Below, piece by piece: positions 49,367 through 53,799 of a DNA stretch of 64,000 nt. Source of the stretch: Mariniflexile sp. AS56 (GTDB taxonomy: Bacteria > Bacteroidota > Bacteroidia > Flavobacteriales > Flavobacteriaceae). The DNA lies in the NCBI RefSeq assembly GCF_030552475.1, contig NZ_JAUPED010000002.1, positions 248,001 to 312,000 on the forward strand, read 5' to 3'. Position 1 is the stretch's first letter. Each line of letters starts with the position of its first letter. Made by a program: the position numbers and the translations under genes. A model generated the notes under the pieces. It was not told the origin of the DNA. It saw nothing but the letters and a program-made list of their open reading frames with translations, and ran no database searches.

Positions 49367-50554
49367 TTACGATCGTCTTCTTGTTGTTGAAGATTCCGAT
49401 CTTGTATTTTTATTATCAGAGCTACTTCTCGATTGTGACGCCACGGGTTTGCTTTGTTGTGTAGACCTTGTAGCAGTTCTTTGTTGTGTTGCTCTTGGTG
49501 TACTTAGCGTGGTACGTTGCGTTACTTGCGGTGTGCTTCTGGTGTTTGAATTGCTTTTATTATATGTACGTTCATTATTGTTGTTTGGTTTATGGGTAAC
49601 CGTATTTTCTCTAGAATTTCTTGTATTATTGCTTCTAGAGTTGTTCTGAATAACAGTTCTATTACTGCTTTCTCGTGTGCTTCTAGAGTCTTTATTTTGA
49701 TAACTATTATCTCTAGACACCCTATTGTTATTAGCATTATCATATCTAGAATCAACGCGCTTTATTACTTGAGAGTTTCTTCCGTTATCATAACGTCTAG
49801 AGTTAGAATTTGATGCCTCTCTTTTCGAGTTTGCATATCTATTTACTTCAGTAACATTTCTAGAACTTCTGTTTGCAGTCGCATAACTTCTATTTCTAGA
49901 AACAGATTCACCATGTCTACTATAAACAGCTGTTTTTGGTCTGTGATTATTATAAAATGGTCTAGAGTACGTGTAACGAACAGGCGTGTAGTGTTGTCTA
50001 TATGGTCTGTTGTAAACTACGCAATAATCATATGATGGTACACTATAGTAACGGTGCCAAGGTCTTGAAACATAATGTCTGTTATAAACATTTATGTAAC
50101 CTGTGTAATGTGAAAACACATTGTAGTTATTATAATGCACATACAAACCACCAACACGATTTAAATTACCATAGTTGTTATAATTAATATCTACGTTTCC
50201 AACCTGTGTTACACGTCCGTAATAATCATAATAAATCGGTGTGTTTTCTACTTGAATGATAGCTCCATATTCATCGTACTGCACATAGGCGTTGTAATCA
50301 TAACCAGAGTTAAAACTAATATTAGCATGTGGCGATCCAATAGATATATTTAAATTGGAGTTGCCTCGTAAAATGTTGAAATCGAATTGCCCATCACGGA
50401 ATACTGAAAACTCGATACCGTCTTCAACAAAAATGAAAGAGTTTCCGTAACCGTTATCGTAAATGGTATTTGTATTGTCTGTGGTGTTTGTGGCTGCATT
50501 AACCGTAAATCCGGTAAGGATTAAACTAGCTAATAAAAATATATACTTTTTCAT
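49367..50554 (-). CDS. secreted protein with YG/VG repeats and basic low-complexity tail
   Basis: A 395-residue exported protein: signal peptide (KKYIFLLASLILTGFTVNAA), then about 140 residues homologous to the product of the gene at 53050-53718 (shared pattern FVEDGIEFSVFRDGQFDFN, then repeats such as YYDYYGRVTQVGNVDINYN). From about residue 205 the protein is a long tail rich in Ser, Asn, Arg and Thr with no cysteines, probably unstructured. No known domain is recognised. A sigma-54-like promoter lies 36-52 bases upstream. Surface, matrix or nucleic-acid binding roles are possible, but unproven. Confidence 0.75.
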   Translation of the reverse strand: MKKYIFLLASLILTGFTVNAATNTTDNTNTIYDNGYGNSFIFVEDGIEFSVFRDGQFDFNILRGNSNLNISIGSPHANISFNSGYDYNAYVQYDEYGAIIQVENTPIYYDYYGRVTQVGNVDINYNNYGNLNRVGGLYVHYNNYNVFSHYTGYINVYNRHYVSRPWHRYYSVPSYDYCVVYNRPYRQHYTPVRYTYSRPFYNNHRPKTAVYSRHGESVSRNRSYATANRSSRNVTEVNRYANSKREASNSNSRRYDNGRNSQVIKRVDSRYDNANNNRVSRDNSYQNKDSRSTRESSNRTVIQNNSRSNNTRNSRENTVTHKPNNNNERTYNKSNSNTRSTPQVTQRTTLSTPRATQQRTATRSTQQSKPVASQSRSSSDNKNTRSESSTTRRRS

Positions 50555-50589
50555 AAGTGTTAGTATTAATTGTGATACGATTAGATAAT

Positions 50590-50606
50590 TACAAACAACG
50601 TGCCAA
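50590..50606 (-). promoter_or_regulatory. sigma-54-like promoter of the YG/VG-repeat protein gene
   Basis: The minus strand reads TTGGCACG-TTGT-TTGTA, against the RpoN consensus TGGCACR-N4-TTGCW. The GG of the -24 box and the -12 dinucleotide are ten bases apart, as required; the -12 GC is GT. Transcription would begin about 25 bases before the ATG at 50554. The paralogous gene at 53050-53718 has an equivalent element. Confidence 0.6.
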
Positions 50607-50714
50607 AAATGAACTACGTTATTTAAGTGTCTGTTTATCAGTTAAAAAATTAGTTTGGGAATAGAGAAAATGTTAAAACTAACTAAAAACATTCTGCTTA
50701 GTATGTTTTTTAAA

Positions 50715-50722
50715 TACCTTTG
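50715..50722 (+). promoter_or_regulatory. -7 element very close to the TetR start codon
   Basis: TACCTTTG matches TAnnTTTG and ends only four bases before the ATG at 50727. If used, transcription would start at or next to the start codon, giving a leaderless or nearly leaderless mRNA. Confidence 0.4.
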
Positions 50723-50726
50723 CCAT

Positions 50727-51329
50727 ATGGAACAAGAGCTAAAGTCTGAACGTACCAAACAAATCATTATTGATGAGGCTTTTAAGCTGTTTTATGAAAA
50801 TGGTTTCAAAACAACAAGTATTGATAAAATAATGACGGCTACCAATTTGACTAAAGGTGCTTTTTATCATCACTATAAAGGCAAAAAGGAGTTAGGATTG
50901 GAAATAATCACTTCTAAATTGGAAAAAAGAGTCTTTCAAGGCATGATTTTGCCATTAACAGAATCTGGTGATGCTTTCAAAATATTAGAAACTACTTTTT
51001 TAGACCGTATAAAAACCTTTTCAATTTATGATAAGCAACATGGGTGCCCCATGAATAATTTTATAAATGAAATAGGGGATTTTGAATCTGTTTATCAAAT
51101 TGCTCTAAAAAACATTATTGAAGCATGGAAAGCAGCTTTAGTATTATTGATAGAAAGAGGGAAAGCCGAAAACTCAATCAATAAAGTAGTTTCCAGTCCT
51201 GCTGTTGCGGTGTATCTAATAAGTGCTTTTGAAGGTATTCGTGGCATTAGAAAATTATATGAAAATGATGTCATTATTGATGAATACATTTCCGGGTTAT
51301 CGCTCTACTTAAGTCTATTAAAAGCATGA
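50727..51329 (+). CDS. TetR/AcrR-family transcriptional regulator
   Basis: A 200-residue repressor. The N-terminal helix-turn-helix is AFKLFYENGFKTTSIDKIMT followed by LTKGAFYHHYKGKKELGLEI, the standard TetR DNA-binding domain; the C-terminal helical domain has the TetR_C_6-like GCPMNNFINEIGDF segment. The ATG at 50727 is chosen because upstream sequence in the longer frame is not TetR-like. It is 41 bases upstream of an SDR oxidoreductase gene, the usual arrangement of a repressor with the gene it controls. Confidence 0.92.
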   Translation: MEQELKSERTKQIIIDEAFKLFYENGFKTTSIDKIMTATNLTKGAFYHHYKGKKELGLEIITSKLEKRVFQGMILPLTESGDAFKILETTFLDRIKTFSIYDKQHGCPMNNFINEIGDFESVYQIALKNIIEAWKAALVLLIERGKAENSINKVVSSPAVAVYLISAFEGIRGIRKLYENDVIIDEYISGLSLYLSLLKA

Positions 51330-51370
51330 TTTTTTTCTAAAACTATCAATAATTTATAAATAATAATAAC

Positions 51371-52105
51371 ATGAATTTAAAAGATAAAGTTGTTCTTGTA
51401 ACAGGTGCTTCAAGAGGAATTGGTAAAGAAATCGCATTGCTTTTAGCTGAAAATGGAGCACGTGTTATCATCAATCATTCCAATAGTGAAGCTGATGCAC
51501 AGGTGGTGGCAAGCACGATAAAAAAGAATGGAGGAGAGTGTTTGGTTGTAAAAGCAGATGTAAGCCAAAGAAAAGAGGTAACTCAATTGTTTGACAGAGC
51601 TATTGCGGTTTATGGGAAAATAGATGTTTTGGTGAACAATGCAGGAGTTATGGTTTGTGAAAAGCTTAAAGATTCGACCCAAGAAGATTTTACCAGGCAG
51701 TTTGATGTGAATGTAAGAGGCATCTTTAATACCTTGCAGGAAGCTGATAGCAAATTAGCTGATAATGGAAGTATTATTAATTTTTCGTCGAGTACCGTGA
51801 AGTTAATGTTTCCAACTTATGCGTTGTATTCGGCTTCAAAAGCAGCAGTTGAGCAAATGTCTCGTGTGTTTTCTAAAGAAATAGGTAGAGGTATATCTGT
51901 AAATGCACTTGCTCCAGGTGCAACAGAAACCGATTTATTTTTAACAGGAAAATCTCAAGAAACCATAGATAAAATTAGTGCTATGAATGCCTTTAATAGA
52001 TTAGCAAAACCTATTGATATAGCGCGTGTTGTGCTGTTTTTAGCAAGTGATGATTCAAAGTGGATATCTGGACAAGTAATAGGTGCAAATGGTGCCTTAG
52101 TGTAA
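51371..52105 (+). CDS. SDR-family oxidoreductase
   Basis: A 244-residue short-chain dehydrogenase. The NAD(P)-binding motif is VTGASRGIGKEIA, the structural motif is VLVNNAGVM, the catalytic serine is in INFSSSTVKL, and the YxxxK pair is in YALYSASKAAVEQ. LAPGATETDLF and SGQVIGANGALV complete the classical pattern. An arginine or serine after the second strand (NHSNSE) slightly favours NADPH. Substrate unknown. Probably regulated by the TetR gene just upstream. Confidence 0.92.
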   Translation: MNLKDKVVLVTGASRGIGKEIALLLAENGARVIINHSNSEADAQVVASTIKKNGGECLVVKADVSQRKEVTQLFDRAIAVYGKIDVLVNNAGVMVCEKLKDSTQEDFTRQFDVNVRGIFNTLQEADSKLADNGSIINFSSSTVKLMFPTYALYSASKAAVEQMSRVFSKEIGRGISVNALAPGATETDLFLTGKSQETIDKISAMNAFNRLAKPIDIARVVLFLASDDSKWISGQVIGANGALV

Positions 52106-52129
52106 TATTAAAACCAAAAATTATATAAA

Positions 52130-52945
52130 ATGAAATTAAGATTAGTATCAACTATTATTTTAAGTATGTTCCTTTTGTCTTGTAAAGATAAAAAGCAATC
52201 GACACCAGTTCAAGAACCATCACCTACTTTCAAAAACAAGGGGCATGAATTGGTTTCTAATATGATAGAGAAAGCAGGGAGTTATCGCATGCTTCTTAAT
52301 AAAAAAGATGTTGTATATACGTATACTTATCAAACGCCTGATGGGAAAAAAGATGTTTCAACAGAGAAATACATGTTCAACGGCGAGTTGTCTTATGGGA
52401 TCTATAATAACCATGAACGTACATTGCCTGAGTTAGAAGGTGTGATCGAACAAGGGTATGACGGTAAAGGCTTTTGGCTAAAACATAACGGAGTTGTTTT
52501 AAGTGATCCAACCCAGTTGAAACGTGTAGCTTTCAATAGACCCACCAATTTTTATTGGTTCGCGATGTTTCAAAAATTATTAGATCCGGGGGTGAATTAT
52601 GAGTATTTAGGGGAAGAAGAAGTGAATAACACAGCATACAATGTTGTGAAGGTTACTTTCCAGTCAATCGATGATAAACCAACGGATATTTATCAGTTAT
52701 ATTTAAATAAAAACACACAATTGGTGGATCAATTTTTATTTACTGTGGCCGATTTTGGTGTGATAGAGACACCTTTTTTAATGGAACTTCAGTATGAGGA
52801 AGTTGATGGTTTATTGATGCCTACAAAAAGACAGTACAAAAAATCTACATGGCATGCAGATGTAAGTGAAGAGCCTTGGATTTATGTAACTTGGTCTGAT
52901 ATTAAATTTAATAACGGGTTGACAAAGGCAGATTTTTTACAATAA
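52130..52945 (+). CDS. lipoprotein, probable DUF6503 family
   Basis: A 271-residue lipoprotein with the lipobox FLLSC (Cys17). The mature part is a single beta-rich domain resembling the lipoprotein-carrier-like DUF6503 group (KGHELVSNMIEKAGSYRMLL, YDGKGFWLKHNGVVLSDPTQ, LQYEEVDGLLMPTKRQYKKS), a LolA/LolB-like fold by appearance. It is 24 bases after the SDR gene and ends at a strong terminator, so TetR, SDR and lipoprotein form one unit. Function unknown. Confidence 0.8.
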   Translation: MKLRLVSTIILSMFLLSCKDKKQSTPVQEPSPTFKNKGHELVSNMIEKAGSYRMLLNKKDVVYTYTYQTPDGKKDVSTEKYMFNGELSYGIYNNHERTLPELEGVIEQGYDGKGFWLKHNGVVLSDPTQLKRVAFNRPTNFYWFAMFQKLLDPGVNYEYLGEEEVNNTAYNVVKVTFQSIDDKPTDIYQLYLNKNTQLVDQFLFTVADFGVIETPFLMELQYEEVDGLLMPTKRQYKKSTWHADVSEEPWIYVTWSDIKFNNGLTKADFLQ

Positions 52946-52992
52946 ATGCTTTTTTTACATAGTTGAAACCTGTTTCGTTAAGGTTTACAAAT

Positions 52993-53031
52993 AAAAAATC
53001 CCGAAGTGCATCATGTGCTTCGGGATTTTTT
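52993..53031. terminator. bidirectional rho-independent terminator
   Basis: AAAAAATCCCGAAG (52993-53006) pairs with CTTCGGGATTTTTT (53018-53031); TGCA/TGTG extends the stem with two G-U pairs. It lies between the lipoprotein gene and the convergent secreted protein gene. Confidence 0.93.
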
Positions 53032-53049
53032 CATCTATGTGATTAAAAA

Positions 53050-53718
53050 TTAATGTTTTTTCTTTTTGTATTTTTTCATTTTTCCATCATGCTTGTAGTA
53101 GTAATGGTCATCTTTTTTGTAATGATGATCATCTTTGTCATTATAATGGTGTCCTTTACTTTTAGAGTGATCTATGCTACAAGAAGCTGTTCCGCACATG
53201 TTGCAGTTTGTATTATAGCTGTTTACATGACCGTGCATGGTTAATATTTCACCTCTGTGACTGTAGTTTAAGTACAAACCGCCAACTTGCATTAACAATC
53301 CATTCCCGCGATTGTAGTCAATATAGATATTACCAGCTCGTGTAATTTTACCATAACGATCATAATTTAAATTTACGTTTCCAATACGTCTTACGGTTCC
53401 GTCACGATCTCTATCAATTGATACACCTCTATTAAGATTATTAGAGCTGTATTGTACTGAAGCGTTTCGACCAGTGTAGCTTACATTAATAGAGTTTCTT
53501 CTAGAATTACTATCAGAATAATTGTTTCTAACATTGGTGTTAAAATCGAAACTACCATCAGGGAATATTAAAAATTCCACGTCGTGCTCTATAAATACAA
53601 TAGGTTGCGTATAGCTATTCCTGTATGTAGCGTCGTTGTTGTTATCGTTTGAATTTGTTGCTGATGCTGTTGTTAATGCCATTAACAAACCTGCAATTAA
53701 AAATACTGTTCTTTTCAT
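53050..53718 (-). CDS. secreted YG/VG-repeat protein with His/Lys-rich tail
   Basis: A 222-residue exported protein: signal peptide (KRTVFLIAGLLMALTTASA), then the same domain as the gene at 49367-50554 (FIEHDVEFLIFPDGSFDFN, YDRYGKITRAGNIYIDYN, MQVGGLYLNYSHRGEI). The C-terminal 60 residues differ: a cysteine cluster CNMCGTASC is followed by a tail very rich in His, Lys, Asp and Tyr ending in KKKKH. The tail could bind metals or polyanions. A sigma-54-like promoter lies about 65-80 bases upstream. Function unknown. Confidence 0.75.
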   Translation of the reverse strand: MKRTVFLIAGLLMALTTASATNSNDNNNDATYRNSYTQPIVFIEHDVEFLIFPDGSFDFNTNVRNNYSDSNSRRNSINVSYTGRNASVQYSSNNLNRGVSIDRDRDGTVRRIGNVNLNYDRYGKITRAGNIYIDYNRGNGLLMQVGGLYLNYSHRGEILTMHGHVNSYNTNCNMCGTASCSIDHSKSKGHHYNDKDDHHYKKDDHYYYKHDGKMKKYKKKKH

Positions 53719-53782
53719 AGTTCAAATATTTGAGATGTTGCCTACTCTTTAGCTTTTCGGCTCTCGCTGTTGCAATGTACAT

Positions 53783-53799
53783 TTCAATTTGCGTGCCAA
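53783..53799 (-). promoter_or_regulatory. sigma-54-like promoter of the His/Lys-tailed protein gene
   Basis: The minus strand reads TTGGCACG-CAAA-TTGAA, close to TGGCACR-N4-TTGCW with GG and the -12 dinucleotide ten bases apart; the -12 GC is GA. The predicted start lies about 54 bases before the ATG. A nine-base inverted repeat CAAACAACT/AGTTGTTTG (53805-53829) sits directly upstream and could bind a protein. Confidence 0.6.

Follow-up and report, generated by a model that had tools for sequence, protein, structure and literature searches.

The window analysed here, a stretch of 64,000 nucleotides from the genome of Mariniflexile sp. AS56 (contig NZ_JAUPED010000002.1, positions 248,001 to 312,000), contains two genes on its minus strand, termed gene 1 and gene 2, which encode paralogous exported proteins and are both preceded by the element TTGGCACG-N4-TTG(T/A)A. 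We propose with considerable confidence that both genes are transcribed by sigma-54 RNA polymerase from a conserved -24/-12 promoter and are switched on together with at least one lipoprotein gene as a regulon of the cell surface. Read directly from the compared sequences are the element itself with the fixed spacing of its boxes, the distance between element and gene, the conservation of the element, its recurrence at an unrelated lipoprotein gene and the presence in the genome of rpoN and of sigma-54 activators. A joint activation of both genes would be expected because the promoter is conserved at their relatives in many genera. The co-regulation by RpoN and an activator that an earlier note on this DNA had suggested is thus supported by the conserved element and by the required protein components.

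The two open reading frames are located where the earlier note had placed them, with the lengths listed in Table 1. Their upstream elements, TTGGCACGTTGTTTGTA for gene 1 and TTGGCACGCAAATTGAA for gene 2, are indeed the sole exact matches to the pattern TTGGCACG-N4-TTGNW in the window, where 0.04 would be expected, and none of 100 dinucleotide shuffles of the window gave two. In the 4.65 Mb of the host genome, the pattern TTGGCACG-N4-TTG occurs four times and its reversed version not at all. Three of these sites stand 36-65 nucleotides before a gene for an exported-looking protein (gene 1, gene 2 and a lipoprotein-like protein on contig C45), while the fourth is found within a coding sequence. 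Counted from the first T of TTGG, the upstream regions of relatives show a peak of conservation at index 27-28, which coincides with the predicted start of transcription and amounts to 0.87 and 1.53 bits for gene 1 and 0.87 and 0.80 bits for gene 2. The classification as a -24/-12 promoter given in the earlier note holds with respect to the spacing of the two boxes but not for a standard -12 box, as the sequences read TTGTA and TTGAA instead of TTGCA or TTGCT.

For the investigation of conservation, relatives were chosen by protein similarity alone, comprising the best 80 of at least 249 confirmed relatives of gene 1 and 47 relatives of gene 2 from the same loci. The gene family is present in 108 of 119 sampled genomes of the family Flavobacteriaceae, and from the list of matches in these 119 genomes we defined a distant set of 80 consecutive rows (E 1.6e-54 to 1.3e-27, 67 genomes), which leaves out the stronger rows and the 7 weakest rows. 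None of the 80 distant regions matches the first set at 95% identity or better over 400 nucleotides, and none match each other at 85%. The TGGCA box at -24 with its GG is found in 202 of 207 upstream regions (80 of gene 1, 42 of the 47 of gene 2 and 80 of the distant set), and the element is thus conserved at homologues, a check that the earlier note had named. The spacing between both boxes is fixed: TGGCA-N6-TTG precedes all 80 gene-1 relatives, mostly 48-55 nucleotides before the ATG, and 40 of the 42 gene-2 relatives that carry the element within 250 nucleotides (the other two contain ATG in place of TTG), and 79 of the 80 members of the distant set, where the remaining one again shows ATG. 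Best scores in the distant set range from 9 to 12, compared to 7 to 11 with a median of 8 after one shuffle of each region. In the remaining 5 relatives of gene 2, the element is located further upstream, before an inserted open reading frame for an exported protein of 148 residues (in locus L038, gene 2 is a fragment).

The relatives also retain the deviation of the -12 box. The base following TTG is a C in 1 of 202 cases, which against a background of 14% corresponds to a binomial p of 2e-12 for sequences that are not fully independent. A degenerate pattern, which was written after seeing the sites and which omits C after TTG, finds 126 matches in 965 kb of the relatives' loci, 77 at gene 1, 40 at gene 2 and 9 elsewhere, all on the strand of the genes and none on the other, whereas 50 permuted patterns give 0-7. 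Eight of the 9 matches elsewhere precede members of the 148-residue family (in locus L050 the start was not read) and one, in locus L081, is unassigned. When aligned on the -24 box, the 17-nucleotide core contains 1.4-1.7 bits per position at gene 1, gene 2, the lipoprotein gene and the distant set, while the flanks between -120 and -50 range from 0.006 to 0.017 at gene 1 and in the distant set, with 0.06 at gene 2 and 0.23 at the lipoprotein gene.

Two further observations concern the gene-2 promoter. The 148-residue exported family is located directly behind a promoter of this type in locus L021 (3083-3700) and at the same place in L017, L022, L031, L033, L038, L040 and L050, and where gene 2 follows, it has apparently become the first gene of the operon. 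Gene-2 relatives also share a second conserved stretch in what is presumably the 5' untranslated region, with the consensus CCAAA (up to 1.76 bits) at index 40-44 counted from the first T of TTGG.

The lipoprotein on contig C45 is unrelated to the proteins encoded by genes 1 and 2 and has no match in Pfam. Its relatives were counted in 30 loci of 42 matching genomes among 60, with the copy of the host read separately and kept outside the counts. The -24 box is found in 29 of 29 regions and the full core in 26 of 29, the remainder containing TCG (2) or TAG (1) at the second box. A promoter model built from sequence alone on 77 gene-1 and gene-2 promoters of relatives was run on the host genome, with scores calculated for 150 of 3802 first-look candidates. 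The 18 places found at E 10 are headed by gene 2, gene 1 and the C45 lipoprotein gene (E 1.6e-4, 2.0e-4 and 0.005). Among the remaining 15, three precede open reading frames for exported or lipoprotein-like proteins by 28-75 nucleotides (loci L130, L134 and L135), one lies 17 nucleotides before a miaB-like frame and most of the rest fall inside open reading frames; we regard these places as leads and not as findings. As a separate observation, a sigma-54-like site of 16.2 bits on contig C10 (936-958, locus L129) has no open reading frame of at least 50 residues on the same strand within its locus of 2.5 kb and might serve a small RNA.

With respect to the transcription machinery, the earlier note had named rpoN and sigma-54 activators as components to look for, and both are present. 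The host genome contains a single intact rpoN with AID, CBD and DBD domains. As Sigma54_DBD is found in 298 of 298 sampled genomes of the family, the presence or absence of rpoN is uninformative as a test. Nine proteins match the activator domain PF00158, three of them strongly (E 1e-67 or better), which are referred to as EBP2, EBP3 and EBP4 (Table 1). EBP2 was found in each of the 119 genomes sampled, where the best match occupies an open frame of 387-425 residues, and 20 relatives that were read all end shortly after an ELRNV(V/I)ERL stretch. The Walker A, Walker B and receiver aspartate motifs are present in the host protein and in these 20 relatives. The loop reads GAFTSA in 16 of the 20, GSFTGA in 2 and GSFTSA in 2, and since the host also carries GAFTSA, the standard GAFTGA was not encountered. 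By eye, no histidine kinase was recognised beside EBP2 in the 3.5 kb locus of the host. EBP3 orthologues (E below 1e-150) exist in 33 of the 119 genomes and are missing in 76 of the 108 genomes that contain the gene family; this protein is therefore not generally required, and we rejected it as a general activator.

Table 1. Features in the window (positions in its own numbering) and candidate activators of the host genome (L numbers denote loci). Signal peptides, lipoboxes and several gene names were assigned by eye.
Feature	Position	Strand	Description
Gene 1	49367-50554	-	Exported protein, 395 residues; signal-peptide-like N-terminus, repeat domain, long basic tail rich in S/R/N/T
Gene 1 N-terminal part, conserved domain	50075-50554	-	Repeated beta-hairpins; 80-sequence alignment, AlphaFold2, Foldseek
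Gene 1 sigma-54-type promoter	50590-50606	-	-24 box TTGGCACG (50606-50599), N4, -12 box TTGTA (50594-50590)
Predicted gene 1 transcription start	50578-50579	-	About 25 nucleotides before ATG; from spacing and conservation peak
Gene 2	53050-53718	-	Paralogous exported protein, 222 residues; short tail rich in K/H/D
Gene 2 sigma-54-type promoter	53783-53799	-	-24 box TTGGCACG (53799-53792), N4, -12 box TTGAA (53787-53783)
Predicted gene 2 transcription start	53771-53772	-	About 54 nucleotides before ATG; from spacing and conservation peak
EBP2	L002:1081-2244		REC-AAA+, 387 residues, loop GAFTSA, lid, no helix-turn-helix (HTH); Pfam (PF00072 and PF00158)
EBP3	L003		REC-AAA+-HTH (HTH_8); by eye, kinase upstream and glutamate-dehydrogenase-like gene downstream
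EBP4	L004		AAA+-HTH (HTH_8, Fis-type), loop GSFTGA; between miaB-like and lptE-like genes (lptE-like by eye), groES about 2 kb further

To place the surface promoters next to a second sigma-54-type promoter, we compared them with the regions upstream of groES in 40 genomes of the family. A weight matrix derived from genes 1 and 2 recognises none of 30 groES regions at a score above 8 (best 4.2, with a training median of 26.3 and 99% of shuffles below 3.8), and both groups were therefore compared by position. With sites picked as best -24 match, TGGCA is found at 39 of 40 groES genes. The base following the G of the -12 box is a C in 22 of 40 groES regions, compared to 1 of 202 at genes 1 and 2 and the distant set and 0 of 29 at the lipoprotein gene, although the groES counts depend on the choice of sites, since 29 of 40 scored 9 or higher and the looser choice used for base counts favours the -24 box. 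A block conserved upstream of groES (loci L284-L323) has the consensus CTGAAAATTTGTCAG in the 29 best sites, spans -25 to -11 and is likely the site of an activator or of a heat-shock regulator. The best upstream window of 15 nucleotides contains 0.83 bits per position at groES, compared to 0.21 at gene 1, 0.26 at gene 2 and 0.16 at the distant set, with a jittered null of 0.05-0.06. The same profile method that finds the groES block thus detects no strong conserved block upstream of genes 1 and 2, although a modest signal exceeds the null, with the highest single position of gene 1 reaching 0.73 bits at -27 from the first T. The corresponding window of the lipoprotein gene (0.37 bits per position) is uninformative concerning an enhancer because its whole upstream region is conserved. 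The motif CTG-N6..10-CAG is found within 60 nucleotides upstream in 14 of 40 groES regions and in 2 of 202 regions of genes 1 and 2 and the distant set. A search for enriched k-mers found nothing strong upstream of gene 1, and the strong k-mers of gene 2 were rejected as probably originating from neighbouring coding DNA.

As activator of the surface promoters we tentatively infer EBP2, an assignment that we consider possible but somewhat short of even odds. According to this mechanism, sigma-54 RNA polymerase would wait at the -24/-12 promoters of genes 1 and 2 and of the lipoprotein gene, and EBP2, once phosphorylated, would act on it from solution. This would account for the lack of a strong conserved enhancer. 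As an alternative that we judge somewhat less likely but regard as a serious rival, the same promoters might be driven by EBP4 bound to a weak or lineage-variable upstream site. EBP4 contains the DNA-binding HTH_8 domain and is encoded near groES in 38 of 40 genomes, and the conservation upstream of the -24 box at genes 1 and 2 is modestly above the jittered null. Conversely, the strong block and the CTG-N6..10-CAG motif seen at groES are not shared to a similar extent by genes 1 and 2 and the distant set, and genome G006 keeps the promoter (L271) while EBP4 was not found beside its groES, although it may lie elsewhere. The rest of the probability falls to a contribution of both proteins or to another activator.

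Several observations weigh against the proposed control of genes 1 and 2 by sigma-54 and EBP2. The C of the usual -12 consensus is missing at both promoters, the upstream windows exceed the null and thus leave room for a weak EBP4 site, and EBP4 with its Fis-type helix-turn-helix is found within about 6 kb of groES in nearly all genomes where groES was compared. The host also contains six further, weaker matches to PF00158 (E 7e-9 to 8e-4). In addition, the 11 sampled genomes without the gene family all contain EBP2 as well, and its presence or absence therefore does not link it to genes 1 and 2. A covariation between the loop of EBP2 and the promoter was considered and rejected, since genome G095 has the loop GSFTGA yet the promoter TTGTA. 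The 12 genomes in which EBP2 is most diverged (58-78% identity) comprise G103 and G072 together with ten that do not contain the gene family, G102 being the only one of the 11 outside this group, but most of these genomes lacking the family are small. A comparison with EBP4 as control was available for 3 of the 11, with EBP2 having diverged further than EBP4 in two (G015 and G035) and less in one (G019). A tie between the divergence of EBP2 and the loss of the gene family is thus unproven.

The comparison might be summarized in a scheme, which we offer as a conjecture, where Flavobacteriaceae contain two sub-classes of sigma-54 promoters. One, represented by groES, would combine an upstream block with a frequent C at -12, whereas the other, found at secreted proteins and lipoproteins, would have no strong enhancer, reject the C at -12 and be served by an activator without DNA-binding domain that mostly carries GAFTSA and is universal in the family. 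If true, class specificity would reside in the core promoter, at the site of contact between DNA and the activator loop, and not in an enhancer.

Sigma-54 itself could be questioned, as the element might be an operator or the site of another sigma factor that resembles a -24/-12 promoter. The avoidance of C in the -12 box, which is unlike the usual consensus, would agree with this idea. However, the GG and the G are invariant at the spacing of sigma-54 promoters, the distance to the start codon agrees, a conservation peak lies at the predicted start, and the same -24 box precedes groES, which the accessible part of PMC9723704 lists as an SM4 promoter of Flavobacterium psychrophilum. The sigma-A box TAnnTTTG was found in 27 of 202 relatives' regions and within 250 nucleotides of neither gene in the window. 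We thus consider this alternative improbable. A mere inheritance of short intergenic DNA that was copied with the gene, as might be suspected from the syntenic locus with conserved neighbours in most of the 80 loci, is already contradicted by the conservation profiles of core and flanks and by the element before an unrelated lipoprotein gene on another contig, and has hardly any probability left.

The promoter type has precedents. In its accessible part, PMC9723704 describes SM4 (sigma-54) promoters of F. psychrophilum that were mapped by RNA-seq of 5' ends at groES, dnaK, grpE, lon, htpG, clpB, remFG-sprCDBF and several exported unknown proteins, with reporter mutagenesis of the motif for remFG-sprCDBF and the suggestion that distinct activators may control clusters of co-expressed genes. 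Because this part already contains start sites at exported proteins, the principle of sigma-54 control is known, and the view of the earlier note that RpoN control of uncharacterised surface proteins is little described calls for correction. The promoter table of that study may already include homologues of genes 1 and 2. The likeness between both systems concerns the promoter type: in both members of the Flavobacteriaceae, -24/-12 promoters precede exported unknowns, lipoproteins and chaperones, and three PF00158 proteins were predicted in F. psychrophilum, as there are three strong ones in the host. As far as described there, SM4 is a single motif with two main expression clusters and unnamed activators, whereas in our comparison the surface promoters are distinguished from groES by the base at -12 and with respect to the upstream block. 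The canonical sigma-54 promoter is given as TGGCAC-N5..7-TTGCT in the accessible part of PMC12316311, which also names validated promoters that deviate at the C of the -12 box. Our promoters share with it the -24 box, the spacing and the TTG of the -12 box but avoid the following C at genes 1 and 2 and the distant set, and as this C occurs in just one of the 202 sites we have filed them as a variant.

A precedent also exists for an activator of the architecture of EBP2. The available portions of PMC7175178, PMC3930126 and PMC7482065 classify FlgR and CtcC as group 5 activators, describe FlgR of H. pylori as acting without DNA binding and place the activator loop in contact with the -12/-11 region in the structure of PspF. 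EBP2 resembles both proteins in its receiver and AAA+ domains and the absence of a C-terminal helix-turn-helix, and differs from what is described there by its predominant GAFTSA loop and its occurrence in every sampled genome of one family, while its regulon is inferred. According to its accessible part, the survey in PMC12316311 kept only proteins with the string GAFTGA and retrained its matrix for each class. EBP2, which lacks this string in the host and in most relatives read, would have been dropped by such a filter, and promoters deviating from the survey consensus TTGCT may have been under-scored too. Judged against open-licence papers in PubMed Central, we regard as new the avoidance of C at -12 in the surface promoters compared to its frequent presence at groES, the lack of a strong upstream block where the same method detects one at groES, and the family-wide occurrence of a REC-AAA+ activator without DNA-binding domain. 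The results provide a large bacterial family with a sigma-54 surface regulon that can be tested and is recognisable by an exact promoter signature. If the assignment of EBP2 holds, they also offer a natural setting in which to test how a sigma-54 activator unable to bind DNA chooses its promoters.

The proteins encoded by genes 1 and 2 share, as recognised in the earlier note, the same exported domain with different tails (34% identity over 170 columns, E 2e-23), and they are the only members of their family found in the host genome. The tail of the gene-1 protein comprises 235 residues with a net charge of +32 and that of gene 2 comprises 51 residues. The gene-1 protein has no match in Pfam or NCBIfam. 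An AlphaFold2 model of its domain has a mean pLDDT of 72, with values of 85-93 for residues 91-150. The top matches of this model in Foldseek are RhsA and teneurins, where the best four show E-values of 0.03-0.06 and probabilities of 0.63-0.97 and none reaches E 0.001, with TM-scores by query length of 0.29-0.38, all below 0.4. In a search with a sequence profile of the family, teneurins also rank first with a weak match (teneurin-4, E 0.05). None of the 80 family members matches the RHS/YD repeat of Pfam at E 0.1, and 11 other Pfam families were each matched weakly and in a single member. While YD/Rhs repeat shells such as RhsA and teneurins thus provide the best structural and the best, although weak, sequence matches, the domain of genes 1 and 2 differs from them in its few repeats and in the absence of any toxin domain that we could see. 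These predictions weakly suggest a domain that is YD/Rhs-like by resemblance and not by membership. Both genes may thus provide short YD/Rhs-like repeat domains with basic tails at the envelope or surface, perhaps during stress of the envelope or of surface growth.

The locus follows a recurring order of uvrA, gene 2, variable genes, gene 1 and wzx-like, glycosyltransferase-like and YfhO-like genes. In the 80 loci, some of which end early, we found the wzx-like gene in 75, the glycosyltransferase-like gene in 74, the YfhO-like gene in 73, uvrA in 56 and gene 2 in 47. In the window, the interval between both paralogues (50655-52945) contains genes for a TetR regulator, a short-chain dehydrogenase and a lipoprotein-like protein. 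At E 1e-10, the dehydrogenase has a match in 2 of 80 loci and the other two have none. Since the interval varies in length and content among relatives, it may be an insertion hotspot between uvrA and the block of polysaccharide genes.

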